Shown here in pieces: positions 1,968-47,120 of a stretch of 48,966 bases of DNA. The stretch comes from a virus. The notes beneath the pieces are model-generated. The model searched no databases. It was not told where the DNA came from and saw only the letters and a list, made by a program, of their open reading frames with translations. The DNA is taken from the IMG/VR virus record IMGVR_UViG_3300012950_000007, positions 1-48,966 of that record, one strand, 5' to 3'. Both the position numbers and the translations under genes were made by a program. Every line of letters begins with the position of its first letter. Position 1 is the stretch's first letter.

Positions 1968-2552
1968 TTAACTGCTGATTTTCCTAACCGTGGCTTTAAC
2001 CATGTCTGCAGCAAAGCCATCCCCACTATTTTGGAAGTCAGAAGCCATCTTATTAAGAGTAGCAGCTATATTTGATTTGCGATTTGATTCCTTAATAAGA
2101 TCTTCTCTAATGCTAAACGCAGTAGCCTCTACAACATCCGCTGCAAATCCTTCATTTTTATTACGCAAACTGGCAGCAATCTTGCCTAATCCACTCATTA
2201 TATAATGACCCAACGGATCACCAGAAGGGGTTACTCTTGCTTTCTTCCTAGACCCATTAGTCTTTCTAGACCTATTAGTCTTCATAGAAGCTTCTTTTTT
2301 ACTATCTTCATCATCATCTGCATAATCAGCATAATCGGCCATATCTCGCACTTGGCTCTCCAGATCAGCTACGTTATCAGGTTCTGCTTTATCAGATTCA
2401 TCTTCAGCGTTAGAAACCAGCAAGTCTTTTAGAACATCATCAGTTACGTCACCTCCGCTGTCTTGAGCTGTTTTTACTATATTTTGATTATTGCTCAAGA
2501 GTCTATTAAACTCTTGAGCAATATTATCACCATTACGTCTAATGCTATACAT
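1968..2552 (-). CDS. Charged virion-region protein with two related C-terminal helical units
   Basis: 194 residues from the ATG at 2552 (MYSIRRNGDN). An in-frame GTG at 2573 exists, but it overlaps the preceding gene's end and AGGAG lies at ideal distance before the ATG, so the ATG is chosen. Residues 40-85 are strongly acidic (DYADYADDDED) and are followed by a basic stretch (TNRSRKTNGSRKKAR). The C-terminal part holds two similar units, KIAASLRNKNEGFAAD and KMASDFQNSGDGFAAD, each followed by V/M-V-x-A-T. These resemble the short LA-x-x-L/AD module seen in other proteins of this block. Function not recognised. Confidence 0.75.
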   Translation of the reverse strand: MYSIRRNGDNIAQEFNRLLSNNQNIVKTAQDSGGDVTDDVLKDLLVSNAEDESDKAEPDNVADLESQVRDMADYADYADDDEDSKKEASMKTNRSRKTNGSRKKARVTPSGDPLGHYIMSGLGKIAASLRNKNEGFAADVVEATAFSIREDLIKESNRKSNIAATLNKMASDFQNSGDGFAADMVKATVRKISS

Positions 2553-2563
2553 TATATTCTCTC

Positions 2564-5500
2564 CTATTCCCACATAGATGCTAAGGCACCAGCCGACATC
2601 AATGTTGTGTTAGAGACAGGTTGAGAGCCAGAATCGGACTCTACCCCAATGTTTAAACCGCCAAGGTCTGAAGCAATCTTCATGTTTTTGACTGGGCGAG
2701 CATTACCAATGCTTCTCTTGAATGCTTCGAAAGCATTATTATCAAAAGACATTATCTCATCAACCTGGTTATCTAATGCAGTTTTCGTAGTAGACAAAAG
2801 TCCTTTTCTTTGCATTTCCAACCCAACGTCATAGGCTCTGCGTAACTTAACTCTATAGCCCTCTCTTTCCTCGTCAGCCTTCTTTGTTACAATGTGAGCA
2901 TTCAAAGACTCTTTTACAGCATTTGTTGCACTAGCCCTTGTAGACATTGGTGCTGCAGAGGCAGTTTTCACTGTTGCAGGTTGCTTTACAGCCTTTCGTT
3001 TAGAGGTATTTTTAGCAACAGATCTTTCGGCATTCTTCAATATTGCTGCCCTACTGTTTGCGCGATCTTTTAGAATTCGATCTTCTGATTGCTTCAGAAT
3101 CGCATTACGACGGCCGCGTCTAAGACTCATAGCTTCTGTTACCAAGCTATCAACAGCATCATCGTCAGCTTCGTTTGCAACACTCTGATCATTAGCCTCG
3201 CTTTCATCAAACACTGCATCATCTTCAACATAATCAACAACCTCATCTGTTTCGCCTTCTGATTGAGCAGTCTTTGCAAGACCTACGAGAGCCTTTGTTT
3301 CACCTGTAATCTGGTCTGCATCTCTTAAGGCAGAACCGGCAAGCTTAACAAATTCCCTTCGCTGAGAGTGGGAAAGCTTGGACATGTTATCATATGTTTC
3401 TGCAACCATAGATAGCTCATCAGCAGAATCGTCCAACTTTCGATAAGCCCTCTTTAGGTTGGTAATGATATGATTAGAGAGAGTCTCAAGTCCGCCCTCT
3501 TCTGCTCCAATCTCCTCTCCTGGCCCGCCTTTATCCTTTCCGGTAAAGACATTTACATCAACATCTGCAAGTCTATCATCCTGCAATTGTGCCACTAAAT
3601 CTCTAACTTCATCAAGAAGTTGTTCAATTTCTGCAAGTCTATTGTCAATAGCTTCTCCAGGCTCCTCGTCTGCGCCTTCCTCGCCCTCGTCTGCGCCTTC
3701 TTCATCCAATGGTGGTAATCCACCTTCTTCGTCCAATGGTGGCAACTCAGGCAATCCGCCTTCCGCATCAGCTTCTGCACCCGCTGGTGCGTCCAGAGGA
3801 GGAAGAGGGGGTAGTGCCTCAGGAGCTTCCTGTGCAGACTTCAAAAGATTAGAAACATTATTTAATCCAAAAGATCTAATCTGATCGCAAACTTCTTTGC
3901 CATATTCCTTACTCTTGAGCCAGTTCCAATTATTTCTTAGCTCTGGGCCAAAAATATCTCCAGCAGTAGCCGCTATAACTCGCTTGTTTCCTGAGAAGAC
4001 CTCAAAAAGACTTCTGTTGTGATTAACAGAGCCATTTGAGTTACGACGAACGCTAAAGCGAGTGCTTAAAGCCGGCCCGCTATAGGCTTGCTTTCTTAGG
4101 CCTCTGTTTGCATAAGAAGCTCTATGTAAATTCTCTTTTGCTTGAGAATCTCCAGGGAACATTCCTGACGTTCCGCCCATGTTTCCGGTTTGAAGCATGT
4201 GCTTGTCTTGATTGTCTCGAACGTTTTTGTAATCTTCGTTCTTATATGTATTTGGCTCAACGCCATCGGCTCCGCCCTGCATATAGGCCAATCTCTGCAA
4301 CCTTCTTTCTTCAAGCTTGGCTCTGCTAAGCTTTTCCTTAGACTCTTTGTCTCCAGGGAACATGCCATTGTCGCCGCCCATGCCTTTGTCCTGCTGCATT
4401 TGCTTATCTTTTTTGAAGTCAAAGGTTTCACCCTTATATGTATTTGGCTCTGCGCCATCAGATCCACCTTGCATATATGCTACACGACGGCGAAGCTCTG
4501 CTCTTTTTCTTAATCTTGACTCATTCATGATATCCTCCACTATTGAATTTATTGAAAAGTCGTCCACATAATCGCTATTAACGCCATTATTAGCTAATTT
4601 AATATTACGATTAGTGTTGTCCGTAGCAAGCTCCGTCAAAACTTCGCCGCCTGACGGAGATGGAAAGAGGTCATCTTCCGATGGAAAACCTTCTCTTTGT
4701 TCGGTTTGTCCACCGCCTGCTAACCCCATCCTAGTACTTCCGCTCAACTCAGGTACATCTCCCGGTAGTCTAGAACCTTCTACGTTTTCACCTGTAGTAA
4801 ATTCTGTTCTAGGAGCTGGACCAACACCTGGTTCGGTTGTTACACTTAACTTATCAGTTGTTGCATTTAACTTGTTAATCAAACTGTTTATTACACTTTT
4901 AACATCATCGGTTACGCTTGGGTCTCCCAAAACATTTGTAGCCTCTGATACTGCAGATAAAGTTTCTGCTATATTTCTATCTCTTTCTGAATTATCAGTG
5001 AAACCACCAGCGGCTGCTTTTAATAATCCATTATTCTCCAAAAATCCTCTTACGATATTTTTTCTCTCATCTACTGAACAACCGCCTTTTCCGCAGGCGG
5101 TCTTCATTATTCCTTCTAAATGTTCTGCTTGCTTTAAGCTTAAGCCTCCAAGCATTCGATCTACATTGTCAACGCCATAATTTATAAATTCATTTGAATA
5201 TTCCTGCAAAGAAGCTATACACTTCAAAAGTACTGCCCCAGGCTCAGCAGGCTGAACGACAAGGCTATATTCTATTGGCTTTAATCCAACATTAACTTCT
5301 CCATGCGCTGTTTTATTTGTTATATGATTGCAGTATTCATCTTGTGTTGTGGCTCGATTTCCACACTCAGAGCAAATAGATGTCTCAACGGCAGTTCCCA
5401 TTGAACCATATCTGACTAGGCCTGTTTCGACCTTTCTTGCTAGCTCTGGATAATTAACCTTGTCTAAAGCACATAGGCCAATAATTTGTTTGAATTTTTC

Positions 5501-5932
5501 ATCGTAATGTGTATCTAAGATTATTCCTCTAATTCCGTCAACAGAACTTGATTCATGATCTCGACACAAAGGGAGTCCAATCCAACTATTTGCCGCCTTC
5601 ATTAACTCAGCTTCTGGAAATATATCTTTATTATTATTTCTATGAGGCTGAACATTTCCATTCCACTTCCAATTTTCATCAAAAAAGCCCCAAGCGTTTT
5701 CTCCGCTTGAGACTTTTTTAAGGCTGCCTTTTTCGTCAAGCAATGCTGACTCTGCCGCCTTTAGGAAGACTATTGAAAAATAAAGAAAGTCATCAGACTT
5801 TGGGGCTATATTTTTTATACTGTTTGCTAGTTTTGTAAAACGTCGAATTAATTTTGGATTTGCAAGTATTTCTTGTTGATCATAAGTACCAACAATGTTA
5901 TTTTCCGGAGAAAAGCATACTTTCTTGAACAT
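2564..5932 (-). CDS. Prohead-protease-like domain fused to a long scaffold-like region
   Basis: 1122 residues. Residues about 115-235 hold a pattern reminiscent of capsid-maturation proteases: PLCRDHESSSVDGIRG (His126), then LDKVNYPELARKVETG and YGSMGT (Ser177). A zinc-type cluster follows (CSEC at 187-190, CNH at 201-203). His126 and Ser177 are the candidate catalytic pair. The remaining ~880 residues are low-complexity and acidic, like a scaffold. They include a tandem repeat at 478-602 and a Pro/Asp/Glu-rich block (PPLPPLDAPAG onward) near residue 720. Location downstream of the portal matches the usual portal-protease-scaffold order. The protease assignment comes from pattern memory; an alternative is a large minor head protein. 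AAGGG precedes the ATG. Confidence 0.6.
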   Translation of the reverse strand: MFKKVCFSPENNIVGTYDQQEILANPKLIRRFTKLANSIKNIAPKSDDFLYFSIVFLKAAESALLDEKGSLKKVSSGENAWGFFDENWKWNGNVQPHRNNNKDIFPEAELMKAANSWIGLPLCRDHESSSVDGIRGIILDTHYDEKFKQIIGLCALDKVNYPELARKVETGLVRYGSMGTAVETSICSECGNRATTQDEYCNHITNKTAHGEVNVGLKPIEYSLVVQPAEPGAVLLKCIASLQEYSNEFINYGVDNVDRMLGGLSLKQAEHLEGIMKTACGKGGCSVDERKNIVRGFLENNGLLKAAAGGFTDNSERDRNIAETLSAVSEATNVLGDPSVTDDVKSVINSLINKLNATTDKLSVTTEPGVGPAPRTEFTTGENVEGSRLPGDVPELSGSTRMGLAGGGQTEQREGFPSEDDLFPSPSGGEVLTELATDNTNRNIKLANNGVNSDYVDDFSINSIVEDIMNESRLRKRAELRRRVAYMQGGSDGAEPNTYKGETFDFKKDKQMQQDKGMGGDNGMFPGDKESKEKLSRAKLEERRLQRLAYMQGGADGVEPNTYKNEDYKNVRDNQDKHMLQTGNMGGTSGMFPGDSQAKENLHRASYANRGLRKQAYSGPALSTRFSVRRNSNGSVNHNRSLFEVFSGNKRVIAATAGDIFGPELRNNWNWLKSKEYGKEVCDQIRSFGLNNVSNLLKSAQEAPEALPPLPPLDAPAGAEADAEGGLPELPPLDEEGGLPPLDEEGADEGEEGADEEPGEAIDNRLAEIEQLLDEVRDLVAQLQDDRLADVDVNVFTGKDKGGPGEEIGAEEGGLETLSNHIITNLKRAYRKLDDSADELSMVAETYDNMSKLSHSQRREFVKLAGSALRDADQITGETKALVGLAKTAQSEGETDEVVDYVEDDAVFDESEANDQSVANEADDDAVDSLVTEAMSLRRGRRNAILKQSEDRILKDRANSRAAILKNAERSVAKNTSKRKAVKQPATVKTASAAPMSTRASATNAVKESLNAHIVTKKADEEREGYRVKLRRAYDVGLEMQRKGLLSTTKTALDNQVDEIMSFDNNAFEAFKRSIGNARPVKNMKIASDLGGLNIGVESDSGSQPVSNTTLMSAGALASMWE
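4127..4501 (-). repeat. Duplicated ~62-residue module inside the protease/scaffold gene
   Basis: Two in-frame copies share, in order, an L+R-type helix, AYMQGG[SA]DG, EPNTYK, D+-M-Q, GMFPGD and a KE-x-L-x-RA segment. The second copy is followed directly by a partial third start (RGLRKQAYSG). The copies are clearly homologous but diverged, so this is an old duplication and not an assembly artefact. Confidence 0.85.
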
Positions 5933-6216: not shown

Positions 6217-8487
6217 TTACTCCGATAAAATTAATATACCCAAAATATCTGAATTTATATACTCTTTAGCTCTAGATAGAGCCATCTTTAAGTCGTCAAT
6301 TACATTTTCTGAGTTTTGAGTTTTTTGCGTACATTGATTTATAAAATCATCGGTATCTAATATGTTTATTAAATCAAAAACTTCTTTAACTGCTTCGGAA
6401 GAAGCCTTTGAGGAGTCTGCTATAATGTTGATTATTTCAGATGTTGTAGAAATATCTTTTATATCATTTAATATTTTAATTCCATTTTTAATATTTATTA
6501 ACATTCTTTTTGTAATTCTAGAATTTCTTTTTACAGACTGATTGTATTTTCCTTTGCTATTTGAAATAACATCTTTATTTCCTTGAACCTTTTCATATGC
6601 AGCAAGATTTTTATTAAAGTTTTCAACCAAAGTATCACACATATCTTTTGATCTATCGAAGTATCTTAAAGCATGCTTTGCCTTGCTCTTTATATCATCT
6701 GGAACAGGAATGCCTGCGGACTTGACTAAGGAGTCGCTATATAGCTCAATATTGTTTTCAGAATATTTTTCTTTTAATGCTTTAAATATATCTTTTGAAC
6801 CGTAATCTTCTGGCACTCGAACAAGATCGCTTGATATGGATGTTTTTAATCCTTTTTTGATTTCAATCTCTTTTTCAAGAAAATTTTCTAAAATTATTCT
6901 ATCATTATTTTTTCTTGATACAAAAACTATGCGCTTTTTTGAGTCCAATGCAGTTTCGCATATCTTCTCCAAAGCTTTGTCCCTCTCTTTGTTATCAATA
7001 TCTGAATACCTCATAGATTCATTTGGAATCACAGAATAAGTTGAATTAATTTTTTCATAAAATCCTTTAGAAACAATATCAGACAAGCCTACCTCTATAA
7101 AACTATTCTTATCTGCAGAAAAAACTTCATTGTGTAATCCTATAAAAATTCTTTTATCATCATCAGGTGCCGCATGTTTGTATAGTTTTATTTTAAAATT
7201 ATTATTTAAAAATAAATTATCAATATCAAAAGCAACTATTTTATTTTCACTTTCATAATTTAATGAAGCATTTTTAATTATTTGTGTAACAGAATGTTGA
7301 TTTTCATTATTATTTATAACATAAATTTTATTATTTAATATATTATAAAATCCAGATTTTAATACACTAGATCTTTTAAATATATATTTATCAACTCCTG
7401 AATTTTTAATTGTGTTTGCTATTTTCAATAAATCATCATCAAAGTCTGCCCCTTGTTCTATATAAATAGAGTTTGACTCCTTGATTCCTAATACATCAGA
7501 TAGTCCGCCTGATATTTCCAAAACATATTTAACACCATGGCACCCGAAAACCTCTAAGGATCCAGGTTGAATATTTTTAGAAATCTTTTTGATTTTAAAA
7601 TTTTCATTTATAAATATAATATCAATAGGATAGCTGACGCTTCCCATATGATAAAAAACATCAGTAGGCCTATTATATGGAAATAACAAACCAGATTCTT
7701 TGTCAAGACGAGAATAAGTCTGAAGTCCATCTATCTTTTCTCTAAATGATTTTGCTATATCACATCTAAAAACAACAGAGGCATCAACATTATCTTCTTT
7801 ATTATAACATCTAACTATAGCCGTTTTGTTTGAATCATTTTTTGAAACCAAATATTTTCCAACTTTATTTATATGTTTGTCTATAATTTTAAACCCTATT
7901 TTTTCTATATTAGAAGAAAAATCAGATGAATTTTTTAAAATTATCAATCCATTACCTATGGGTCTTAAATGATTATAAATGTTATTTAAAATAATCTCCA
8001 AAGAAGCTCCAGCTGTTTGTGAGCTTGCTATACAAAATCCATCAAATTTTCTTCTAAATGTATGAAACATTGGATCTCCATACTCTTGATGAAATTTGTG
8101 TATATTTACTTTATTTGAAGCATCTTTTGACAAATTAATTAAATTATGTCCTTCTTTTAATATTATTGATGCAGATTTATCTGTTTGCTTTCCAACGCTT
8201 AAGATCGTAGATTCTTTTTTTATTAAATTTAAAAATCTTTTAGACATACTTTCTAAAGCAAAATATTCTTCTGAATCTATCTGGTCCTGGAAAAGATCAT
8301 CTACTGGAAACATCATTCCTTCCGAATATCCAGGCGGATCCTCCATAGTAAGCTCTTCTAGTTCTTCTGAATCAGACGTTGTACTTTTTCCCTCTCCAAC
8401 AAAAGTGTCATAGTGGTTGGAGTCCATAGCTATGTCGTCTTCCATTAGATTTAAATCTGAATATGGTGGCCAAGATAATTTTTTCAC
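6217..8487 (-). CDS. 756-residue protein with an embedded DUF192-like domain
   Basis: The start is a GTG at 8487 with GGAG 5 bases upstream. Residues 35-75 are acidic. Residues about 235-345 fit the DUF192 pattern: a GLLFPY segment, then HMGSVSYPIDIIFIN, a KIKKISKNIQPGS strand, and the hallmark YVLEISGGLSDVLGI. DUF192 proteins are usually small, stand-alone and of unknown function, so one inside a long head-region protein is unusual. The rest (residues 350-756) is Lys/Asn/Ile-rich and mostly helical, with no motif I can name. Codon use is visibly more AT-rich than in the portal and terminase genes, which may hint at separate origin. It lies between small head-region genes and the protease/scaffold gene. 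Confidence 0.65.
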   Translation of the reverse strand: MKKLSWPPYSDLNLMEDDIAMDSNHYDTFVGEGKSTTSDSEELEELTMEDPPGYSEGMMFPVDDLFQDQIDSEEYFALESMSKRFLNLIKKESTILSVGKQTDKSASIILKEGHNLINLSKDASNKVNIHKFHQEYGDPMFHTFRRKFDGFCIASSQTAGASLEIILNNIYNHLRPIGNGLIILKNSSDFSSNIEKIGFKIIDKHINKVGKYLVSKNDSNKTAIVRCYNKEDNVDASVVFRCDIAKSFREKIDGLQTYSRLDKESGLLFPYNRPTDVFYHMGSVSYPIDIIFINENFKIKKISKNIQPGSLEVFGCHGVKYVLEISGGLSDVLGIKESNSIYIEQGADFDDDLLKIANTIKNSGVDKYIFKRSSVLKSGFYNILNNKIYVINNNENQHSVTQIIKNASLNYESENKIVAFDIDNLFLNNNFKIKLYKHAAPDDDKRIFIGLHNEVFSADKNSFIEVGLSDIVSKGFYEKINSTYSVIPNESMRYSDIDNKERDKALEKICETALDSKKRIVFVSRKNNDRIILENFLEKEIEIKKGLKTSISSDLVRVPEDYGSKDIFKALKEKYSENNIELYSDSLVKSAGIPVPDDIKSKAKHALRYFDRSKDMCDTLVENFNKNLAAYEKVQGNKDVISNSKGKYNQSVKRNSRITKRMLINIKNGIKILNDIKDISTTSEIINIIADSSKASSEAVKEVFDLINILDTDDFINQCTQKTQNSENVIDDLKMALSRAKEYINSDILGILILSE

Positions 8488-8531: not shown

Positions 8532-8831
8532 TCAAAGCCTTATCATAAGCTCGCTTAAAACTACATTTATAAAATGTGGATCCTTTCCATTTAATATATT
8601 TTTAATCAAACTAAGACTAACGCCTATTGCCGCGCCACCTGGGGCGCGCTTATTTGCAATCTCCATTACATTAAAATCCCGTAGTTTGTTTGAGACATTT
8701 TGATAAGACCTGGGCCGAGCCTCCACAGACATTCTGGATATCATGATTTTTATTATACTATGTAACTGTTCAGCTACATATATGGCATTCTGCTCAAGCA
8801 GTTGTGCATTTTTATCTAGATTCTTTGACAT
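8532..8831 (-). CDS. Small hypothetical virion-region protein, 99 residues
   Basis: ATG start at 8831, overlapping the previous gene's end by 20 bases, which implies translational coupling. The protein looks helical (LEQNAIYVAEQLHSIIKIMISRM). A short loop, RAPGGAAIGVSLSLIKNIL, lies near residues 63-82. No cysteine motif, signal peptide or clear transmembrane helix is present. It belongs to the cluster of small genes between the portal and the 756-residue protein; function unknown. Confidence 0.7.
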   Translation of the reverse strand: MSKNLDKNAQLLEQNAIYVAEQLHSIIKIMISRMSVEARPRSYQNVSNKLRDFNVMEIANKRAPGGAAIGVSLSLIKNILNGKDPHFINVVLSELMIRL

Positions 8832-9375
8832 GTTCCTCTGCCTTCAAAGCGCTACCCTGGTAAGCCTCTCTTTTGGAATCAGCTAAACTATTTCCAAGAT
8901 TAACATACATTTTTAATAATTCATTAAATTGTTTAGTTAATTTAATCAAAACCTCTTCTTGATTTGTAATGTCTGATTCCACAATCTTTACAAGCAGGTC
9001 TCTAAATAATAAGGAATAATCTAATGATTTTTGGACTGCTATTTTTTTTATCAAAAAGTCTGCAAAATTTGCCAAAGCCATATCTTCTTGCTTGTCCATA
9101 TCATCGGCCAAGTCAACAAGCAGACCTGTAAGTTCCTCATAGTCCATTTTTTCGGTATTCTTTGCTTTTGGCCTTTCTGGCAATACAGGTTCATCTTCTT
9201 TTTCGCTGTGTGTAGGAGGCCACACCGGATCTGCAGGAGAGGTAAACCCTCTGCCTACTCCAGCGCTGGTGTCCCCGGAAAGCCCTTCTTCGCCAACATG
9301 AGTGCTCGGCATATCTTTGGGATCAATTTTAGGCATCACTTCTGGTGCTTTATTTATATAAGATATCTTCTTCAC
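8812..9375 (-). CDS. Hypothetical virion-region protein with LADDMD/FADFLIKK module
   Basis: 187 residues, ATG start. The first 75 residues are a Pro/Gly/Glu-rich, probably disordered region. Residues 84-113 read LVDLADDMDKQ, then LANFADFLIKKIA, which resembles the short LANHLD/KEADYLDR module of the proteins encoded at 19300-19824 and 13748-14272. The C-terminal half is helical (LFRDLLVKIVE, LIKLTKQFNELL). The end overlaps the 99-residue gene. No enzymatic motif is visible; a structural or assembly role downstream of the portal is the best guess. Confidence 0.7.
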   Translation of the reverse strand: MKKISYINKAPEVMPKIDPKDMPSTHVGEEGLSGDTSAGVGRGFTSPADPVWPPTHSEKEDEPVLPERPKAKNTEKMDYEELTGLLVDLADDMDKQEDMALANFADFLIKKIAVQKSLDYSLLFRDLLVKIVESDITNQEEVLIKLTKQFNELLKMYVNLGNSLADSKREAYQGSALKAEEHVKESR

Positions 9376-13145: not shown

Positions 13146-13751
13146 TTATCCGGATGCGTGAGACATATAATCTGCTATATCATCATCATATGATGATGGC
13201 ATATCTGCTTCAGACATATATTCTACTTTTTCCGGACTACTTTTGTGCTGTTTAAGTATCTTTTCAACTAATTTTCTAAATTTACTATGATCTATTTTGC
13301 TTTCGACTTTATCAAATCCAAGCTTTGGATGCTCTCTGCAATGTGTTATAACAGCTCCATAGCCTAAGTCTGTACGATCTGATGCGAATGCTTGAATGTA
13401 TTTCAAAATGGTTCTAAGAACTTCTAACATTTCTCCGCCATCCTCTTTCTTCGATTCGCATGTACCACACTTGCCTTTCCCGGCCTTTTCGTCGCAACAT
13501 GTATCTCCACAACCAGCAGATTTTATGTTTTGATTATCTTTTGTATTTATATTCTTAATAAGATCAAAGCCAGCCCGCTCTTTCAGGTCTGCCATTTTTT
13601 CTTCAATTGTGGAAAAATCATTACGCTTTTTCATAACAGAACGAAGATTGCTGAGATAATCAGCATTCTTTTCTAAATTTTTTGCAAAGTCATTAATCCA
13701 ATCAACTGTTGTATTATATTCTTCGCTTAAAATTTGTCTTGTTACTTTCAT
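13146..13751 (-). CDS. Hypothetical protein with a compact cysteine cluster
   Basis: 201 residues; the ATG overlaps the previous stop as ATGA, suggesting coupled translation. Residues 81-98 hold five cysteines (CGDTCC, then CGTC), a likely metal-binding knuckle flanked by Lys/Gly-rich sequence. The rest is charged and helical. The C-terminus is acidic with DDDIADYMSHASG. It lies immediately before the large terminase, a spot where terminase-associated or small head genes are common, but it shows no helix-turn-helix and I do not recognise it. Confidence 0.75.
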   Translation of the reverse strand: MKVTRQILSEEYNTTVDWINDFAKNLEKNADYLSNLRSVMKKRNDFSTIEEKMADLKERAGFDLIKNINTKDNQNIKSAGCGDTCCDEKAGKGKCGTCESKKEDGGEMLEVLRTILKYIQAFASDRTDLGYGAVITHCREHPKLGFDKVESKIDHSKFRKLVEKILKQHKSSPEKVEYMSEADMPSSYDDDIADYMSHASG

Positions 13752-14272
13752 TCAAATAGACCCATATCTTTCAAAGCTTCTGCAGCTGAGTCTACGGCTC
13801 CCTTCGCAGCTTCCTCTCCTGCCTCTAAGCCTTCTTTTGCCTTCTCTTCCAAGTTGGGAAGCTTTCCTCCTATTGATTCGGCCAATACCTCAACAGATTT
13901 CTTAACCCCGTCTAACACCAGGCCGGACAATCCGGTTTCGTCGGCGCATCTCATAAATTCTTTAAGTAAATTCGTTGGAATCTCGTCTATAACCATGGGA
14001 TTGGGGAATGCACAATTCAAAAAATTGTTTATCTTAATATCGTCTACTCCTGCTTTGGCCAAAATCATCTTTAAAGCCGCCAACACATCTTCCCAGGATA
14101 AATCATTTACATTTGGCATATCTCCCGGCAGAATCGAGCTGCCGCCATCTTGTGCTAACTTGTTTAATATTCTGTCAACAAAGTCAGCTTCTTTTGTTTT
14201 CTTTATTCCGTCCAAATGATTTGCCAATTTGACAAGATCTTTTTTAATATCTTCTAATCTAATATTATCCAT
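13748..14272 (-). CDS. Hypothetical virion-region protein with N-terminal LANHLD/KEADFVDR module
   Basis: 174 residues, ATG with GGAG upstream. Residues 14-38 read LVKLANHLDGI, then KEADFVDRILNKLA, nearly the same as the C-terminal end of the protein encoded at 19300-19824. An LPGD motif follows (ILPGDMP), also found in other proteins here. The C-terminal third is Glu/Ala-rich and helical (EEKAKEGLEAGEEAAKGA). There is no enzymatic signature. The shared module suggests a common docking, targeting or processing signal, which is inference only. Confidence 0.75.
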   Translation of the reverse strand: MDNIRLEDIKKDLVKLANHLDGIKKTKEADFVDRILNKLAQDGGSSILPGDMPNVNDLSWEDVLAALKMILAKAGVDDIKINNFLNCAFPNPMVIDEIPTNLLKEFMRCADETGLSGLVLDGVKKSVEVLAESIGGKLPNLEEKAKEGLEAGEEAAKGAVDSAAEALKDMGLFE

Positions 14273-14290
14273 TTTAAAATAACTCCTAAT

Positions 14291-15337
14291 TTATGCAAAA
14301 TAATTTCTTAAAAAGTCAACGCCAGCCTTGCCGTCAGACTTTTCTGAGTCAGCATTATTTGGCGAATATGTTCCACGATCTTTAAAGATATGAAATCCAC
14401 TATCCATACAAAGCTGCATTATTGCAAGCTCTTCTCTGTCATCAATAGAATATTTATTGGATAAGAAATCATAAACATCTTCTATAGAATGACCGCCTGA
14501 AATATGAGCATTTATCATTATTCCAGAAATTGCACGCTCGAAAGGAGAGACGGCTATAACTATATTATTGGGAGTAGAAGCTTCTTTCGTAAGCTCATCA
14601 TAGTCTACCTCTCTGCCGTCTGTGCTTGTCCATTTAGGAATGCCAAGAAAATCTAAAGATGCTTCTTTTGAATGCTCTTCCTTAAACTTCTTCTTAAGCT
14701 TGCCAAGATGATCTTTTAAAACCAGGATATCTTTCATTATATTTACTCGAACATCTTCGAGCGCCTGTATATCTAAAAGGTTATCACCATCTTCTCTGAT
14801 GGCTCCTGAGATCTGTGTATTTAGTTTGTCAAGAAAGGTTATGGCCTTTTCGCAACCAAGCATGCTTCTTCCGTCATGCTGAGGAATATTAGCAGGGTAT
14901 TGCCCTCCCACATATTCTACAAACTTACTTAAATCTCCATCATTTGCATAGTCTGTCTCTTTGTCTTTAGCGTTATCATCTAATTCTTCCGAACTAACAT
15001 CAGAACCAGGCAAAAGAACTGATACAGGCTCATCTCCATGCTCCTTTACAAGCTTGGTCAATTGTTTGTCCAAACCCTCTAGGTCTTCTCCCATATCTCC
15101 GAAGCTTCCCTCTCCCTCTGTAAAAGTGCTTAAAACATCTTCTACAGTTGCTTCTTCTTCATCCGTCGTATCGCCCTCATCTTGCCCGACTGTTAAGCCT
15201 GCTCCAAAAATTTCCTCTGGCAACATACCCTCAAAGTCATCTTCCGTATAGTTAACATGATCATCTTCTAAGTAAGAAACTGCTTCACTATAATTAGATT
15301 CTTTAAAAATTGTTGTTGTTTGTAAATCATTAGCCAT
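14291..15337 (-). CDS. Acidic hypothetical virion-region protein, 348 residues
   Basis: ATG start with AGGAG upstream. Residues 15-130 are strongly acidic and probably disordered (EDDHVNYTEDDFEGM, TTDEEEATVED). The middle is helical (VNIMKDILVLKDHLGKLKKKFKEE). Residues about 250-330 form a compact-looking domain (FERAISGIMINAHISGG, SIEDVYDFLSNKYSI, ELAIMQLCMDSGFHIF). No motif points to an enzyme. The neighbours are all virion-block genes of unknown role. The acidic N-terminus would suit a scaffold-like or packaging-associated part. Confidence 0.75.
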   Translation of the reverse strand: MANDLQTTTIFKESNYSEAVSYLEDDHVNYTEDDFEGMLPEEIFGAGLTVGQDEGDTTDEEEATVEDVLSTFTEGEGSFGDMGEDLEGLDKQLTKLVKEHGDEPVSVLLPGSDVSSEELDDNAKDKETDYANDGDLSKFVEYVGGQYPANIPQHDGRSMLGCEKAITFLDKLNTQISGAIREDGDNLLDIQALEDVRVNIMKDILVLKDHLGKLKKKFKEEHSKEASLDFLGIPKWTSTDGREVDYDELTKEASTPNNIVIAVSPFERAISGIMINAHISGGHSIEDVYDFLSNKYSIDDREELAIMQLCMDSGFHIFKDRGTYSPNNADSEKSDGKAGVDFLRNYFA

Positions 15338-15345
15338 TTTGTCTC

Positions 15346-15780
15346 CTATCCTATTAAGCTATAAAGTCCATAATATACATTTCTACTTTCATTATTATCA
15401 GAATAATAATCTAACGGATAACCATATTGGGCTTCTGGCATGTTGCCAATCATAATATGAGGATATAATGGGCTTCCATTAAGTCCTACATTACCCGCAG
15501 GAATAGTAGATTGTCTTGGGTCGTGCTTGCAATCTACCGAATCTTGTTCTTCAAAAATCATATCTGCAAATGGACACTTTGAATGTTCGCTTATCATAAG
15601 CATCATTTCTAAATTATTATCCGCAATTTCCTTTGCCTCTTCTTTGTCTTCGGCTAACTCTAAAGGCGTCATTTCAAAAATAACCGGGCGCTTGGAGCCC
15701 TCTTCGACTCCTCCTGCGATTTTGCAGCCGTCTGTCACCGAAAGTCCAAATGGACATTTATTTAATTTACCTCTGATCAT
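15346..15780 (-). CDS. Hypothetical protein with paired CPFG/CPFA cysteine motifs
   Basis: 144 residues. Two related cysteine motifs occur: KCPFGLSVTDGC (Cys9, Cys19) and KCPFADMIFEEQDSVDC (Cys69, Cys84). They probably bind one metal ion together or form an internal duplication. Between them is an acidic helix (ELAEDKEEAKEIADNNLEMM). The C-terminus is Tyr/Asn-rich. The ATG at 15780 has only a weak upstream purine run. The location between the nucleotidyltransferase and the acidic 348-residue protein gives no clear hint of function. Confidence 0.75.
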   Translation of the reverse strand: MIRGKLNKCPFGLSVTDGCKIAGGVEEGSKRPVIFEMTPLELAEDKEEAKEIADNNLEMMLMISEHSKCPFADMIFEEQDSVDCKHDPRQSTIPAGNVGLNGSPLYPHIMIGNMPEAQYGYPLDYYSDNNESRNVYYGLYSLIG

Positions 15781-15821
15781 TATTGGTATATCCTATATAA
15801 ATGAAAGAAATATTAGTAAGT

Positions 15822-16640
15822 TTAAAAATCTAATGTTTTTAACTTATACTCAGATAAATTAATTACATCATCTAAATATTTATTAACGAGCCTTCTTTTG
15901 ATAAGTTCTTCTTTAAAAACGCCAGACATAGGCACTGTTGGTAACAAATTCATTTCTTCCAAATAATACATGGTTACATCAGGGTCATTATTTATAGCTT
16001 CTCCTATAATTGATGTCATAAAAGCTTCTTTTAAAACCCATTTGTTTTCTCCGGTAAATTTGTTTCTATTGTTTTTTACATAATCAATAATTTCATCATC
16101 TATTTTAAACCCAAAACGAGCAGCGAAACTAATCGCTCTATAAATCCGTCTGAAATCATTATTTAAAGTTATTCTGGCAGGAACTGGGGTTCTTAATATT
16201 TTTTTATCTAAATCTTCTTTTCCCTTGTTTGTAAGATCAAAAATCTCATCTTCAAAAAACCGCTTATGTAAAGTATTTATTGTAAAATCTCTACTATAAA
16301 CTTCAAATAATTTTTCATCTTTAATATTTAATTCTTTTGTTATATAATCAACAGCTTCTTCGGATATAAAATTACTCGAAAAATCAAGAATCATATTTTT
16401 TATATATATAGAAACGTGACCATCTTTTTGAAAAAATTTAAATCTTTCTTTAAGCTCACTAGCGGTGGTTATAGCTAGTCTCGTTATATCAGAATTATTT
16501 GTAGTTATATCTATATCTCTAGGGTCTTCATTTAAATTAAGATATAAGCTCCTAGGAATGCCTCCAACTATGTATGGCTCAACTATATAATTATCTTTAC
16601 ATATCTCTAATATTTTTGAATATATATTTTCAAGATTCAT
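15822..16640 (-). CDS. tRNA nucleotidyltransferase / poly(A) polymerase family enzyme
   Basis: 272 residues from the ATG at 16640. The longer TTG-started form (to 16658) is less likely because GAGG sits 5 bases before the ATG. The N-terminus has the class II nucleotidyltransferase signature YIVGGIPRSLYL, then DPRDIDIT (Asp42 and Asp44 as metal ligands). The family's next motifs follow: SRDFTINTL and the RIYRAISFAARFGFKID segment that contacts the nucleotide. The enzyme would add CCA to tRNA 3' ends or A tails to RNA; bacterial CCA enzymes are longer (about 400 residues), so the C-terminal body is short. AT-rich gene; no tRNA genes occur in the window. Confidence 0.85.
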   Translation of the reverse strand: MNLENIYSKILEICKDNYIVEPYIVGGIPRSLYLNLNEDPRDIDITTNNSDITRLAITTASELKERFKFFQKDGHVSIYIKNMILDFSSNFISEEAVDYITKELNIKDEKLFEVYSRDFTINTLHKRFFEDEIFDLTNKGKEDLDKKILRTPVPARITLNNDFRRIYRAISFAARFGFKIDDEIIDYVKNNRNKFTGENKWVLKEAFMTSIIGEAINNDPDVTMYYLEEMNLLPTVPMSGVFKEELIKRRLVNKYLDDVINLSEYKLKTLDF

Positions 16641-16664
16641 TTGAGCCTCTTTGAACAAAGTTGT

Positions 16665-18257
16665 TTACGCTGGAAGTTCTGGTGCGACTAGTTCTTCTTC
16701 TCCAACTTCTTGCTCAGGTGCTGGAGCGACCTCTTCGGCTGACTCCACCTCTTCTGCAGCTCCCGGTATACCTGTTTGGGCCCTTACCAAGGTCTTCGCA
16801 TTAGCAAGCTGCCCCATCATTTTTGTAACCCTGGTAAGAGCATATGAGTATGCATCAATCAATTTGCTTTGAGACTCTGCAAGCTCTGGAAACATAGAGG
16901 CTATGCCTAATCTGTCAAGCATTATATCAAACTCAGCCAATTGTCTAATAATTCTTCTGTCTGCAAGCATGCCAGCTACTTCGTCTAACTTTGTAGCTGC
17001 ATCATCAAGTCCTATATCTCCAGCAAGCTCTTCGTATTCTCCCGGCCTTGCGCCCGGTATTGGTTTAATACTCTCAAGGGCAGCAGGCTCCACAGTATCA
17101 GCCTTTGGAATTCCACTAGTAGGACCAGCCTCTTCCGCCTCTGGTTCTACCCCTTCTTCTGAAGGAGCCTCTGCAGGCAAGGCCTCCTCTGCTACCCCAG
17201 CAACAGGGGCTGCAGGTGCAACTTCCTCTTCTCTTTCAAGTCTTGGGTCAGGACCTTGATTCAAAGGTGGTTGTTCTGGAACCTCTTGGGCTATCTTTTT
17301 TAGAATTTCTGCGCCTTCTGTGTGGCCCAGCTTGGTAAATTTATTTGCAGCCTTATAGGTTACATCAGTTATGGTGTTTGCCAACTTTAATGTATGAACC
17401 TGCAGGCTGAGATTCATAAGGTTTTCTGCAAGATTTCTATATGTATCTGAATCCATATACCTATCTGTTCTTAAAAGCTTGTCTATGCGTCTAATTGCAG
17501 TATGAAGTTTTCCTTTCCAATTACTAAAGACATCTTTATCCTCAACAGCTTTATTAGCATTTGATGATACATGATCAAAAAGATGCTGATCAAGGCTGTC
17601 TCCAGGCATATTATATCCCGTGTTCTCCCCCAGGTATGCGCTACCTCCTCCGGAATAATAAGGACTATTGCCTTGTCCCATATCGCTAATGTAAACAGCT
17701 TTCTTTTTCATATCTTCATCCTCTTTTGAGCTATATTTTAAGTGTTCTCCATCACTATAATATTTAAACCATTTTTTAAACTTTTCATCTTCATCTTCTT
17801 CTATATTTAAAAAATTACTATAATAATCTAAAGCATTTTGTTTTGTCATCTCTTTGTTTGCAACAGAATCATAAATCAAATGAACAACCTTTAACCAATT
17901 ATTAACATTAAACTCATTTTCAATATCATCTCTGTATCCAAATGTATTGGGATAAGCAACTTTTTTAATATTATTTTTTTGAGCTTTCATTCCAACTATA
18001 TTATAATAAGCATCATTTATGTTGTTTATCTTAAGGTTTAATAATTCTTTATTTTCTTCGAAAGAAAGTTTTGCCCCGATGCTTTTTGCTGCTGATTTTA
18101 AAATAAAATATTTTTTAAATTTTTCATCACTATCAATGCCCATGCCTGATAAATCAATAGATTTTTTCATAAGCTGATCGAACGTGTGCGTCTTTGCGCT
18201 CACTGGCAAGCAGGACAATTTCTTTGTAAAATAATTATTTATCTTATCTTTGCTCAT
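16665..18257 (-). CDS. Large hypothetical virion-region protein with Pro/Glu/Ala-rich linkers
   Basis: 530 residues; the ATG overlaps the preceding stop as ATGA. Residues 1-180 are Lys/Asn-rich and helical. Around 190-225 is YISDMGQG, GGGSAYLGE and YNMPGDSLD, resembling the AYMQGG...MFPGD repeat unit of the 1122-residue protein. Residues about 240-325 are helical (LLRTDRYMDSD, LMNLSLQVHTLKLANTI). Residues about 325-410 and the C-terminus are disordered Pro/Glu/Ala tracts (PAAPVAGVAEEALPAEAP). No catalytic motif is seen. It looks like a scaffold, tape or internal head component; sequence does not decide among these. Confidence 0.75.
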   Translation of the reverse strand: MSKDKINNYFTKKLSCLPVSAKTHTFDQLMKKSIDLSGMGIDSDEKFKKYFILKSAAKSIGAKLSFEENKELLNLKINNINDAYYNIVGMKAQKNNIKKVAYPNTFGYRDDIENEFNVNNWLKVVHLIYDSVANKEMTKQNALDYYSNFLNIEEDEDEKFKKWFKYYSDGEHLKYSSKEDEDMKKKAVYISDMGQGNSPYYSGGGSAYLGENTGYNMPGDSLDQHLFDHVSSNANKAVEDKDVFSNWKGKLHTAIRRIDKLLRTDRYMDSDTYRNLAENLMNLSLQVHTLKLANTITDVTYKAANKFTKLGHTEGAEILKKIAQEVPEQPPLNQGPDPRLEREEEVAPAAPVAGVAEEALPAEAPSEEGVEPEAEEAGPTSGIPKADTVEPAALESIKPIPGARPGEYEELAGDIGLDDAATKLDEVAGMLADRRIIRQLAEFDIMLDRLGIASMFPELAESQSKLIDAYSYALTRVTKMMGQLANAKTLVRAQTGIPGAAEEVESAEEVAPAPEQEVGEEELVAPELPA

Positions 18258-18529
18258 ACGGGTTCTTTTCTTCTATATTTTCTTAAACTTTCTTCTTCCG
18301 GACCAAGTATTCCTTTTATTTCCTCTGCCCATTCATTCCGAACCTCTCCATCTATTTCAGAAAGTTTTGGAATAATATATTCTGTTAAAAAAGTCCTTAT
18401 ATGTTCATCAGAAACATCTTTTTTTTCATGATATAAACTTAAGTTTTTTACAAGCCAATCTCTGAAAGAAATATCACTATTTAAATCTTCAAGATTAAGA
18501 ATTGCATGCACTCGTCCATCAACTAACAT
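18254..18529 (-). CDS. Small acidic hypothetical protein, 91 residues
   Basis: ATG at 18529 with GGAGAGG 7 bases upstream, overlapping the candidate small-terminase gene's end by 11 bases. The sequence is helical and charged (LEDLNSDISFRDWLVKNLSLY, HIRTFLTEYIIPKLSEID, EEIKGILGPEEESLRKY). No recognised domain. The tight overlap with both neighbours suggests co-translation with them and possibly complex formation. Confidence 0.75.
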   Translation of the reverse strand: MLVDGRVHAILNLEDLNSDISFRDWLVKNLSLYHEKKDVSDEHIRTFLTEYIIPKLSEIDGEVRNEWAEEIKGILGPEEESLRKYRRKEPV

Positions 18530-19205
18530 CTATTACCTCTCCATGAATATGGCCTATGTTTTCTCCATTTAATTGTTTCGTCTTTATATCAAGCTTATCT
18601 ACAAAAACCGGAATAAGATTTGGACTTAATTCTTGCAACACTTCCAAAACAGCCTCCTTCAAAACTCTTGCCTGTTCATTTACTACACTAATATTAATAT
18701 TATGTTCAATCTTTTTATCTGCAACACCCTCAATATACTTCTTCCAGTCTTGCATTAGCGTCTTCATAGTATTTATATATTCAATGAAAATCTTATCTTC
18801 CCTAAGAGAGCCTCCCTCTTGTAACAGATTATAATAGTATTCTATTCTTGAATTTATAAGACTATCTAACTCAAGGAGTCTTTTTGCGACATCTAATTCG
18901 GATGTTGCAATCTCTTCAATCTTCTGCTGATATGAAGAAGAAGCCTTTATGACCATGCGAGTTTCTGCCTCTATAGCCTCTTTGTCTATTTCGCCTCTTC
19001 TGTTCTTGATGTCATCTAAAACTTCACCCTTTAGATTTAAGTGTTCCCCTCTAAATTTTTGCAAGGTCATATAGGAGATATGAAGGCGTCTGGTTCTTGG
19101 ATATTTCTCCTTAAGCCAACGCTCAACCTCTTTAACGGAGTCGCCCTCTAATAGCTTTTTTATAACCTCTTCTTTGTCTGGATGATTTAAAATTTTCTTG
19201 CTCAT
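18519..19205 (-). CDS. Candidate terminase small subunit-like DNA-binding protein
   Basis: 228 residues; ATG with GAGGT upstream. Residues 8-55 look like a helix-turn-helix (EVIKKLLEGDSVKEVERWLKE, then ISYMTLQKFRGEH), the usual start of phage small terminase subunits. A long helical middle (residues 75-160) would give the oligomerising core, and a short C-terminal segment ends GHIHGEVIDVS. Small terminase subunits recognise the packaging site and hand DNA to the large subunit. The large subunit lies about 5 kb downstream instead of next door, so this is a fair but uncertain call. It is the first gene after the terminator-like hairpin at 19217-19254. Confidence 0.45.
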   Translation of the reverse strand: MSKKILNHPDKEEVIKKLLEGDSVKEVERWLKEKYPRTRRLHISYMTLQKFRGEHLNLKGEVLDDIKNRRGEIDKEAIEAETRMVIKASSSYQQKIEEIATSELDVAKRLLELDSLINSRIEYYYNLLQEGGSLREDKIFIEYINTMKTLMQDWKKYIEGVADKKIEHNINISVVNEQARVLKEAVLEVLQELSPNLIPVFVDKLDIKTKQLNGENIGHIHGEVIDVS

Positions 19206-19216
19206 ATTTACCTCTA

Positions 19217-19254
19217 AAATAAAAAGTCCTAGCTTTATATTACTAAGCTAGGAC
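19217..19254 (-). terminator. Intrinsic terminator, 10-bp perfect stem plus U-tract
   Basis: On the minus strand GTCCTAGCTT pairs perfectly with AAGCTAGGAC around a 9-base loop (arms 19245-19254 and 19226-19235), followed by CTTTTTATTTT. It lies in the 94-base gap between the 174-residue gene and the candidate small-terminase gene. Confidence 0.8.
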
Positions 19255-19299
19255 ATTAATATTTAATTTAGTTAAGTTTAGACTAAGACAAGCAAAAAG

Positions 19300-19824
19300 C
19301 TATTTTCCCTTTACTAATCGGTCTAGATAATCGGCCTCTTTAATAAGGCCGATTTTGTCCAAATGATTGGCCAAATGCATCATACTAGATTGCAATGCAG
19401 CACCTCCGCCGGGGAATGTTCTACCATCCTCTGCTTTGAAGCCATCATTATAATCATAAACCTTGTTAGTATAGGGGTCTTGGAATACTCCATCAGAAAC
19501 CCTCATGGCCTGGACTCCCACTCGATCCGGCGAATAACGCGTAGAAAGATGAGGGGCCGGAAATTCAGTTGGAACATAAGAATCTTCATGATCTGGAGTT
19601 ATTCCATATAGACTATCTGTATCTCTGCCTAAAAGCTCTCCACCTCTAGTTGCCAAATATCTATCACGAGTTGCATATTCTGCCACATTTGATTGAAAAT
19701 GCTGAAAGGCACCGTGCTGATCTCCAAGAGCTTGCTTTTGAAGTTCTTCAATCTTGCTTGTTCTTCCTTGTTGTCTTTCAGAATTTACCAAAAAACCCTT
19801 TATATTTTCAAATCTATTGCTCAT
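19300..19824 (-). CDS. Hypothetical virion-region protein ending in the LANHLD/KEADYLDR module
   Basis: 174 residues, ATG with AAGGAA upstream. The N-terminus is Gln/Arg-rich (SERQQGRTSKIEELQKQALG). The centre is a Tyr/Pro/Asp-rich, poorly ordered region (SLYGITPDHEDSYVPTEF). The last 25 residues hold LANHLDKIG, then KEADYLDRLVKGK, the clearest copy of a short module shared with other proteins of this block. The gene is followed by a strong terminator, so it closes the transcript that begins upstream. Function unknown; the terminal position of the module suits a targeting or docking tag. Confidence 0.75.
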   Translation of the reverse strand: MSNRFENIKGFLVNSERQQGRTSKIEELQKQALGDQHGAFQHFQSNVAEYATRDRYLATRGGELLGRDTDSLYGITPDHEDSYVPTEFPAPHLSTRYSPDRVGVQAMRVSDGVFQDPYTNKVYDYNDGFKAEDGRTFPGGGAALQSSMMHLANHLDKIGLIKEADYLDRLVKGK

Positions 19825-24726: not shown

Positions 24727-26379
24727 TTAATATTTATGTACTAAGGTGCCTTCTTCTGGAGGTCGCCATCCAGCAGGAGGTTGCCAACCAGATGGATTCT
24801 CGGCTTGTTCTGACACAATAGCTTCTGTATTTATCAGCAGCAATGAAATACTAGCAGCATTTTGAAGGGCTGTTCTAGTAACTTTCTTTGGATCAATAAC
24901 ACCGGCTACAACTAAATCCTCAAATTTGCCATTTGCAGCATTATATCCAAAATTTATATTTTTCGAACCCAAAACCTTCTTTATTATTTTACCGGAATCT
25001 TCAAATGCATTTTCAACAATTTGAGTAATCGGCCGCACACACGCGTCCAAGAGCACCTTTGCGGCTGGGGCTAATTCTTTATCTAAAGAGGACAAATCAA
25101 CTTTATTTGCAGCCCTAAGCAATGCTATCCCACCCCCTGCAACATAGCCCTCTTCAATTGCGGCTCTTGTTGCACAAATGGCATCATCAACTCTGTCGCC
25201 TTTTTCTCTAAGCTCAAGCTCTGTAGAGTACCCAACAGACAATATGGCTGCTTTGTTTTTAAGAAACGATATTCTGTTATTTACATCCAAACGTTCTGAA
25301 TCGCCTATAAGTTTGTCTAAGTCTTTTCTATATGCAGAAAGCTTATCCTTCATCCTGGACTCATCTTTGTTTCCTTCAAATATCTTGGTTAAGAATCTGT
25401 TTACAACTACCTTTTTGGCAAAGCCTAAATCGTCAACTGTAGCGCTAGACAGGGCGCTTCCCCCGTCAGCCCCAAAGACCCTGGTTCCAACCAGCACAGA
25501 GAGCGCCTCAAGCCACTCTAACCTGCCACTAACACCAATGCCCATAGGAGGTATGTTAACGGCAACAACTTTTAATCTTCCAAGCTTATTGTTTGTAACG
25601 AATGTAGCTAAAGCTTCTTGTTTTACGGATCTGGCTAAAACCAAAACTGGAAGATTTTTGTTTGATAAATCATTAAGCAAGTTAAAGCAAGAAGTTAGAG
25701 AAGTTATCTCTTCATCGCATATTAAAATATTACAATTATCTATAACAACATCCGAATGATCTTCTGTCAAAAAAGCTGGAGTTACATAACCAGCCTTCAA
25801 TTCTACTCCGTCAACAAATCTGACAGAGGTTTCTGGCCCTGGGCATGCCTCTGCAGTAACAGCCCCCTCTAATCCGATTGTGTCAAATGCCTCTGCTATT
25901 TTATAGCCAATATCTTCATCATTATTAGCAGAGATTGTTGCAATATTTTGAAGAGAACTGAGCCCATCAATGTCCGTTGCCATACCATTTAAGTTATTAA
26001 CGACTTGGTCTACCGCCCATTCTACGCCTCGTTTAAAATTAAGAGGACTATAATTAGTATTTATTAATTCATTTCCTCTCTTAAAAATTTCATGAGCTAA
26101 AACTGTTGCGGTAGTTGTTCCGTCTCCAGCTACAGCCGCAGTTCTGCCTGCCGCCTCTTTTATTAACTGACACGCTAATTCTTCAATTGGATCTTTAAGA
26201 GTAACTTCTCTTGCTACGGTTACACCGTCTTTGGTCAAAACTGGCGAGCCCACGAACTTCCCCAAAATAACATTTTTACCTTGAGGCCCCATTGTGACGC
26301 CAACTGTCTTAGCCAGCTTCTCTGCTCCAGACAGAAGAGTTGCTCTAGCCTCTTCGCTGTAAGTTAAATCTTTAGCCAT
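24727..26379 (-). CDS. groL: GroEL-type chaperonin (HSP60)
   Basis: 550 residues over the full family length. Equatorial ATP-site motifs are intact: TMGPQGKNVILGK, VAGDGTTTATVLA, the VDDAICATRAAIEEGYVAGGG segment with the catalytic Asp, and VIDPKKVTRTALQNAASI. The apical region is more diverged: NIPPMGIGVSGRLEWLEAL stands where bacteria have KAPGFGDRRKAML, and the E/D-rich GroES-contact helix differs. The usual GGM-repeat tail is replaced by a Trp/Pro/Glu-rich end (SGWQPPAGWRPPEEGT). It would refold phage proteins, perhaps capsid subunits. No GroES gene is seen, so it may use host GroES or work differently. Confidence 0.95.
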   Translation of the reverse strand: MAKDLTYSEEARATLLSGAEKLAKTVGVTMGPQGKNVILGKFVGSPVLTKDGVTVAREVTLKDPIEELACQLIKEAAGRTAAVAGDGTTTATVLAHEIFKRGNELINTNYSPLNFKRGVEWAVDQVVNNLNGMATDIDGLSSLQNIATISANNDEDIGYKIAEAFDTIGLEGAVTAEACPGPETSVRFVDGVELKAGYVTPAFLTEDHSDVVIDNCNILICDEEITSLTSCFNLLNDLSNKNLPVLVLARSVKQEALATFVTNNKLGRLKVVAVNIPPMGIGVSGRLEWLEALSVLVGTRVFGADGGSALSSATVDDLGFAKKVVVNRFLTKIFEGNKDESRMKDKLSAYRKDLDKLIGDSERLDVNNRISFLKNKAAILSVGYSTELELREKGDRVDDAICATRAAIEEGYVAGGGIALLRAANKVDLSSLDKELAPAAKVLLDACVRPITQIVENAFEDSGKIIKKVLGSKNINFGYNAANGKFEDLVVAGVIDPKKVTRTALQNAASISLLLINTEAIVSEQAENPSGWQPPAGWRPPEEGTLVHKY

Positions 26380-28581: not shown

Positions 28582-29045
28582 TCCGAAACCCTCCTAACTG
28601 TTGGCCCAGAATTCTTAACCTTGCTTTCTTTTGCTATTCTTTTTAACCTTGCAACCTTTAAATCTTCATCAGCATTTTCTAACGCATCTTCCATATCTGT
28701 TATTGCTTCGCTTCTAATCTCTTCTCTAATATTGTCATAGCTCTCTTCTTTAAACTCTTCTGCGGCAACAAGGCTCTCGTCAATCGGAATGGGCTCCTCT
28801 TCATTAGTAGCTTCTGTATTAACAGGAAAAAACTCTGACATTATAAATAATGATAAATCAAAAATTAATTCATTACTTAATTCCTGCGAAAACTCTTGTT
28901 CCAATATTCTTTGTTTCATAAGATCTAGTCTGCGAGAATGAAGATCCCCCAAAAGAGCCGAGCCACAACTAGGGCAGCAATTCTTCATCAAAGAATGTCT
29001 CATTGATGTATTAACTTCAAATTCACAATTTTTACAAACTATCAT
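28578..29045 (-). CDS. Zinc-ribbon protein with acidic helical tail
   Basis: 155 residues; the ATG overlaps the dnaE stop as ATGA. Cys4, Cys7, Cys24 and Cys27 (CKNC, CPSC) make a rubredoxin-type zinc ribbon. The rest is acidic (NEEEPIPIDESLVAAEEFKEES) and then basic (ARLKRIAKESK). Coupling to dnaE suggests a role with the polymerase or replisome, but no direct evidence exists. Confidence 0.75.
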   Translation of the reverse strand: MIVCKNCEFEVNTSMRHSLMKNCCPSCGSALLGDLHSRRLDLMKQRILEQEFSQELSNELIFDLSLFIMSEFFPVNTEATNEEEPIPIDESLVAAEEFKEESYDNIREEIRSEAITDMEDALENADEDLKVARLKRIAKESKVKNSGPTVRRVSD

Positions 29046-46584: not shown

Positions 46585-47120
46585 TTGTTTGAATACCTCC
46601 TATTTATAGCATCTTTTATTTTTCGCAATAATGCTTTTGTGCGATGTACATCATACCTATCAACTTCTTTTATATATCCATCTGTCTTCTTCATAAGGCT
46701 TTCTATCCAAGCAATGTCATCAGGATGTCGCTTTTGAGCATCTCTAAAACAATTAGATATTTGCAAAAGCTGTGAAAAATTCATAGCCTTTTTTTGCTTG
46801 GAAACTTTTCCAATTTTCGTTGGATCAACAAATTCTGATAAATCATATATCGCTGTAGAAAAGTCTACACCTTTACATAATATGTAAAAGTCAATAGCAT
46901 TGTTAGACGCTCCGCATCCAAAGCAATAAAAATTATTATTTACATCATCAATATATAAAGACCCTGTTCTTTCAGAACCATTCTTATGTTCTGCAGACGG
47001 GCACTTACACCTGTGTGTAAAATTCCCACTGTTTATCTGCTCCAATGATATTGAAAACTTAGAAGCTAAACTGGTTATTGTTACAGTTTTTATTATTTCT
47101 TCTTTTGAATATCTAATCAA
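46581..47120 (-). CDS. CHC2 zinc-finger domain of a split DnaG-type primase
   Basis: 179 residues if read from TTG 47120, which overlaps the FtsK-like stop as TTGA, a pattern common in this window; a longer frame from TTG at 47138 is possible. The DnaG N-terminal zinc motif is present: CPSAEH (Cys40, His45), then FYCFGCGA (Cys66, Cys69), with the typical DFYILCKGVDFSTAIYDLSEF helix after it. Template recognition in priming is its known job. The Toprim and RNA-polymerase parts are absent and are encoded at 22445-23203. The C-terminal half is a charged helical tail (KEVDRYDVHRTKALLRKI) that could bind the partner subunit. Confidence 0.88.
   Translation of the reverse strand: MIRYSKEEIIKTVTITSLASKFSISLEQINSGNFTHRCKCPSAEHKNGSERTGSLYIDDVNNNFYCFGCGASNNAIDFYILCKGVDFSTAIYDLSEFVDPTKIGKVSKQKKAMNFSQLLQISNCFRDAQKRHPDDIAWIESLMKKTDGYIKEVDRYDVHRTKALLRKIKDAINRRYSNK

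Follow-up and report, generated by a model that had tools for sequence, protein, structure and literature searches.

The 48,966-base virus record IMGVR_UViG_3300012950_000007, analysed here over its full length (the window), contains a head and packaging operon in which several proteins share a short module. Both best copies lie on the minus strand, in two 174-residue proteins that are not covered by any Pfam or PHROG family. One copy forms the end of the protein at 19300-19824 (LANHLDKIGLIKEADYLDRLVKGK, with the module at 19309-19383), and the other occupies residues 13-38 of the protein at 13748-14272 (LANHLDGIKKTKEADFVDRILNK, with the module at 14159-14236). The two copies align without gaps and, as the original prediction had noticed, the bodies of the two proteins are unrelated. 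The operon and the forms of the module found in it, scored with a hidden Markov model (HMM) or by profile-profile comparison, are as follows.

707-21891, minus strand: head and packaging operon (portal, terminase, protease), enriched in the motif [LIVMF]xKxA (46 observed, 9.8 expected)
19309-19383, minus strand: module at the C-terminus of protein 19300-19824, MMHLANHLDKIGLIKEADYLDRLVK (HMM E 3.9e-14; profile-profile 98%)
14159-14236, minus strand: module at the N-terminus of protein 13748-14272, LVKLANHLDGIKKTKEADFVDRILNK (HMM E 7.7e-11; profile-profile 99%; helical hairpin in the AlphaFold2 model)
9043-9120, minus strand: diverged module inside protein 8812-9375, LVDLADDMDKQEDMALANFADFLIKK (HMM E 4.6e-10; profile-profile 95%)
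1977-2066, minus strand: probable diverged module at the C-terminus of protein 1968-2573, ATLNKMASDFQNSGDGFAADMVKATVRKI (profile-profile 70%)
2118-2195, minus strand: possible first copy in protein 1968-2573, SGLGKIAASLRNKNEGFAADVVEATA (register matched by eye; not significant alone)
17283-17354, minus strand: marginal module in protein 16665-18257, KAANKFTKLGHTEGAEILKKIAQE (in register; E 0.007, probability 6%)
13644-13685, minus strand: partial module (second half) in protein 13146-13751, AKNLEKNADYLSNL (profile-profile 33%)

We evaluated the weaker forms with hhalign, matching a profile of the module to alignments built from homologs of the window proteins. The proteins beginning at 13748, 19300, 8812, 1968, 13146 and 16665 ranked highest, all from the head region, and the best window protein beyond that region reached E=0.052. 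The profile separates head-region proteins from the others, and the window's copies are confined to the head operon. The weaker forms listed in the original prediction held up in part. The copy in 8812-9375, whose gene comes second after that of the portal, is firm, and 31 of 35 members of its family retain the module. In 1968-2573, the second copy (residues 170-199, in register) is probable and the first did not reach significance, while the form in 16665-18257 is marginal. A weak form in 13146-13751 was absent from that list; its homologs have SNGLSKNADYLDNL and KRGLTKESDYLDNL at the site. At the place of 13748-14272, relative G001 encodes a different protein with a tag of the same kind.

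The 27-residue consensus of the module is ELIKLANxLDxxGLxKEADxLDxIIKK. A profile of 97 representatives reads M-[IL]-K-E-L-I-K-L-A-N-x-L-D-x-x-G-L-x-K-E-A-D-x-L-D-x-I-I-K-K-x-A, and its information falls to background level beyond position 28. Relatives were gathered with the 19300-19824 protein and the terminase as queries, and 90 of these loci together with the window made up a set of 91 sequences. An iterated 27-position HMM matched this set 147-151 times at E<0.01, and never its reversed or shuffled counterparts. A broader pattern scan enlarged the carrier set to 242 modules on 228 proteins, against 0 in the reversed control at the same threshold (best reversed match, E=3.6).

The module is portable. 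With it masked, the carriers fall into 108 body clusters (BLAST E 1e-3; remote homology between some clusters is possible), and in 87 of these it is mainly N-terminal. A methionine stands at a fixed place in 75 of the 97 representatives, and 59 of the 75 have a ribosome-binding-like site just 5' of the start. Nearly every carrier has a single copy, with a maximum of three, and the large relatives encode 13 (G001, 316 kb), 16 (G002, 223 kb) and 11 (G006, 232 kb) tagged proteins. Between copies within one genome, the mean proportion of synonymous differences (pS) is 0.74-0.83 and that of nonsynonymous differences (pN) 0.24-0.33. DNA identity among copies is only 57-63%, with synonymous sites saturated. 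Because pS is far above pN, it is the peptide and not the DNA that is conserved. The proposal of a short portable module serving as a tag is thus strongly supported: some 108 unrelated bodies carry it, its place at the N-terminus is fixed, selection acts at the protein level, and its distribution, described below, is narrow.

The original prediction placed the module at chain ends. It is indeed terminal, mostly at the N-terminus, and its C-terminal place in the 19300-19824 family resembles a fusion with a downstream tagged gene. In this family, 28 members have the module and 14 do not. The G001 member ends without it, and the next downstream gene, overlapping by 1 base, starts with it; the most likely origin of internal and C-terminal copies in the family is therefore fusion to a tagged gene. 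The window copy is compatible with an in-frame deletion between two copies found in relative L001. Elsewhere, peptidase-like proteins (G001:113816-114775, G005:192427-193380 and G013:72337-73149) continue in frame into a tag. Ahead of the tag stand a methionine and an apparent translated ribosome-binding site (GDIKM in one case), which gives the look of two fused neighbouring genes. A second shared ending reads approximately RIxKxAxLxSxEF, with RR or similar after it, and is found on at least 8 proteins that each also have an N-terminal-type module (for example G005:190713-193380, G006:33283-34053, G011:43819-46556, G013:72337-73149 and G014:32229-33158).

The module is predicted to be a two-helix hairpin. 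AlphaFold2, run on 53 aligned tags, placed helices at residues 2-14 and 18-34, with a predicted local distance difference test score of about 90 over residues 1-30. The model of the whole 19300-19824 protein has low confidence and renders the module as one long helix, unlike the module-only model. The Protein Data Bank yielded neither a sequence relative of the module nor a significant relative in fold. The nearest folds, Rop and designed TPR hairpins, share the two-helix shape of the model without a significant structural or sequence match, and the module differs from them in being a single terminal tag. We do not assign it to the TPR proteins, which have 34-residue repeats in tandem: the carriers scanned had no Pfam TPR match, and most have one copy.

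Among the sequences searched, the module is restricted to this phage group. No match was found in cultured phages by tblastn, and the strict pattern GLxKEA[DN]YLD gave none in the DNA of bacterial and archaeal genome contigs. A looser N-terminal pattern gave 18 matches in the same contigs, so that 257 Gb of bacterial and archaeal genomes yielded a single convincing match, on a phage-like contig. This 8.4-kb contig (L236, JAIOYD010000055.1), from the bin of a Rickettsiaceae metagenome-assembled genome, encodes a virion structural protein and several tagged or look-alike proteins, and is therefore probably a phage inside a bacterial bin. A literature search on the motif letters returned no match. 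The nearest cultured relative found is Bacillus phage G (Donellivirus). Its major capsid protein is 51% identical to that of G001 (the major capsid gene lies outside the window), and the window's portal is 32% identical to its counterpart. A profile search of the whole of phage G (497,513 bases), Rctr197k, LR745208 and Tunturi_5, run without a positive genome, found no module, while a related profile, A1, recovered 14 of the 15 group members.

The head operon has a second feature in common with the tags, the motif [LIVMF]xKxA. Its observed count in the window's head-region proteins is 4.7-fold that expected from shuffles, compared to 11 against 11.9 in the replication genes elsewhere in the window; these counts include the modules themselves, which contribute few sites. 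The head regions of co-linear relatives behave alike (G006, 44 against 12.1; G001, 42 against 10.8), with replication regions at expectation. Tail genes are slightly raised and the terminase has zero sites. The most enriched gapped pair in the head region was K-x-A, with L, I or M two before the lysine and Q or S after the alanine; K..A, R.A, K.S and K.L showed no enrichment. Motif lysines are more conserved than other lysines (0.76 against 0.51). Applied blind to the core proteins of T4 as a positive control, the test ranked L.E and I.E first, and [LI]xE is the established motif of the T4 protease gp21 (PMC9026906). The gp21-type signature L.E[AGS] was not enriched in the head region analysed here (11 against 9.6 expected). 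Finally, 46 of 96 N-terminal tags close in [LIVMF]xKxA, compared to 1 of 362 windows further downstream. These patterns suggest that [LIVMF]xKxA is a head-protease motif, and the operon encodes a prohead protease of a known family, recognised by a phrog_18299 match. Two further features bear on the motif.

2564-5932, minus strand: protein of 1122 residues with a head maturation protease-like region (approximately residues 99-207; phrog_18299, E 3e-13) and 12 [LIVMF]xKxA sites (1.4 expected)
19729-19743, minus strand: conserved KxA site (LQKQA) ahead of the conserved body of protein 19300-19824 (23 aligned homologs; K invariant, A nearly invariant)

The protease-bearing protein also contains two near-repeats, RRRVAYMQGGSDGAEPNTYK and RLQRLAYMQGGADGVEPNTYK. 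The phage G head region is similarly enriched (25 against 9.4), so the motif may be older than the hairpin, no copy of which was found in phage G. Around the major head gene, plain KxA is raised in LR745208.1 (L253, 101 against 65.8) and Tunturiibacter phage Tunturi_5 (L254, 66 against 41.9), and the motif may therefore mark a broader jumbo-phage lineage.

Several tagged proteins are recognisable. These include an ArdC N-terminal domain, DUF5591, a GDSL hydrolase with a peptidoglycan-binding domain, and a CCA-type nucleotidyltransferase with the tag at its C-terminus; a LysM domain fell just under its cut-off. By eye only, a lysozyme with a peptidoglycan-binding domain has a degenerate tag, and further tagged proteins resemble HExxH or M15 peptidases. 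Functions of this type are what proteins entering with the DNA might be expected to have, but most of the cargo is unrecognised and the match is only suggestive. The window has an untagged tRNA nucleotidyltransferase-like gene in the head operon (15822-16658), of which G002:110494-112848 is a larger, distant relative with the tag at its C-terminus. The window also encodes a Cpn60 chaperonin (24727-26379), a DnaE-type DNA polymerase (29042-32413), an FtsK/SpoIIIE-type ATPase (47117-48208) and a DUF192 domain in a 756-residue protein (6217-8487), and a second chaperonin, of a distinct kind, occurs elsewhere in the group.

Because the hairpin fronts about 90 unrelated proteins and often ends in a head-protein motif, we read it as an address label. 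Our best reading, by analogy, is that it works like the capsid-targeting sequence (CTS) of T4, to which it is unrelated in sequence: a portable capsid-targeting tag with a head-protease site, for the heads of jumbo phages related to phage G. We put the chances of this explanation at about even. The hairpin, usually encoded at the start of a gene, would bring unrelated cargo into the assembling head by docking on a component of the head interior, and we infer that the proteins at 8812-9375 and 19300-19824 could serve as partners through pairing of hairpins. The head maturation protease at 2564-5932 would later cut at [LIVMF]xKxA, as gp21 does in T4, and remove tags and parts of the scaffold. 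The cargo would then stay inside the head until it passes into the host along with the DNA. For the function suggested by the original prediction (docking, capsid targeting or processing), the portable tag itself is strongly supported, whereas location of the window copies in the head operon, the motif at the end of many tags with its T4 control and the type of cargo speak only indirectly for such a role.

The likeness to T4 is one of architecture. In both systems a short N-terminal tag is carried by unrelated small proteins and has at its end a protease motif, established in T4 (PMC9026906) and putative here, where about half of the N-terminal tags show it; the motif is enriched in core proteins, and the T4 internal antirestriction factor finds a parallel in the ArdC-like tagged protein. 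The module differs in length (27-30 residues against about 10), in its predicted helical hairpin, in its motif ([LIVMF]xKxA against [LI]xE) and in fronting up to 16 cargo proteins per genome, and its targeting and cleavage are putative. We do not class it with the T4 CTS, since the two share no sequence similarity and the cleavage signature of T4 shows no enrichment. The giant phages SPN3US and phiKZ, which remove N-terminal propeptides at AxE and SxE, respectively, are comparable as jumbo-phage heads with many inner proteins and a short cleavage motif, which here is a predicted one; their propeptides are mostly 111-254 residues long, their motif ends in E, and no shared portable module has been described (PMC10052503, PMC5694885).

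Several observations weigh against a targeting tag with a protease site. The function of most cargo is unrecognised, roughly half of the tags do not finish in a clean [LIVMF]xKxA, and certain conserved KxA sites occupy positions where a cut is improbable, for instance residue 112 within the protease region. Phage G has the motif without the tag, and the proposed docking partners are candidates only. KxA is found within the hairpin of the module as well (LIKLA, LxKEA), and so may be structural there. These two patterns, and the many sites that could be helical, would fit a motif with which head proteins dock or habitually cap their helices, instead of a protease site; the tag may still target the head. 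We consider this possible but somewhat doubtful, in an assessment that overlaps the targeting explanation and is not exclusive of it: against this reading stand the lack of enrichment of the four related patterns, the preference for Q and S after the alanine, and the known T4 protease motif, which yields the same kind of signal. Whole relatives carry most of their tagged genes outside the head operon, which would suit a tag for another destination, such as a replication compartment, a membrane or a host protease (as a degron). One tagged protein (G001:155144-155653) continues into a hydrophobic, lipoprotein-like stretch. However, the window's modules are confined to the head operon and the conserved head families of 8812-9375 and 19300-19824 carry them, and we regard another destination as quite unlikely.

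Alternatively, the modules might pair into small helical bundles that link proteins inside infected cells and play no part in packaging. The modelled hairpin, its non-significant resemblance to Rop and designed TPR hairpins and the presence of up to three copies in one protein are in keeping with such oligomerisation, but a near-universal single copy at a fixed N-terminus is more tag-like than repeat-like and the [LIVMF]xKxA ending is left unexplained, so this is rather unlikely. Rickettsia palindromic elements are a precedent for a short peptide common to unrelated proteins. A mobile DNA repeat inserting in frame, or leftovers of whole-gene duplication, could account for the many copies per genome and for fused open reading frames that, read from their protein sequence, appear to retain the ribosome site and start codon of the tag. 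However, in contrast to those elements, selection here acts on the protein, position is fixed and the DNA copies have diverged (pS about 0.8), and we dropped a palindromic or repeat element as a candidate. Whole-gene duplicates, which the original prediction had named as a competing explanation, were likewise dropped, as the masked bodies are unrelated and separate into their 108 clusters. Either origin is very improbable.

A targeting tag with a head-protease site would mean that this group evolved its own cargo-loading code, in which a hairpin tag and a K-x-A head-protease site pack at least 10 proteins per phage, so that they are delivered together with the DNA; antirestriction, cell-wall and RNA enzymes would be among them. 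We advance this combined claim tentatively, at slightly below an even chance. If true, the tag would mark, from sequence alone, packaged and probably injected proteins among the hundreds of jumbo-phage genes of unknown function, and the tagged set would be a prime place to search for anti-defence and host-takeover factors. The motif-enrichment test, which recovered the known T4 motif, may be an inexpensive means of predicting such protease motifs in phages that have not been cultured. The module would also be a candidate for bringing foreign proteins into capsids, a use already made of the T4 CTS. For the phage G lineage, the finding would provide a specific cleavage motif and a lead on how very large capsids are filled.

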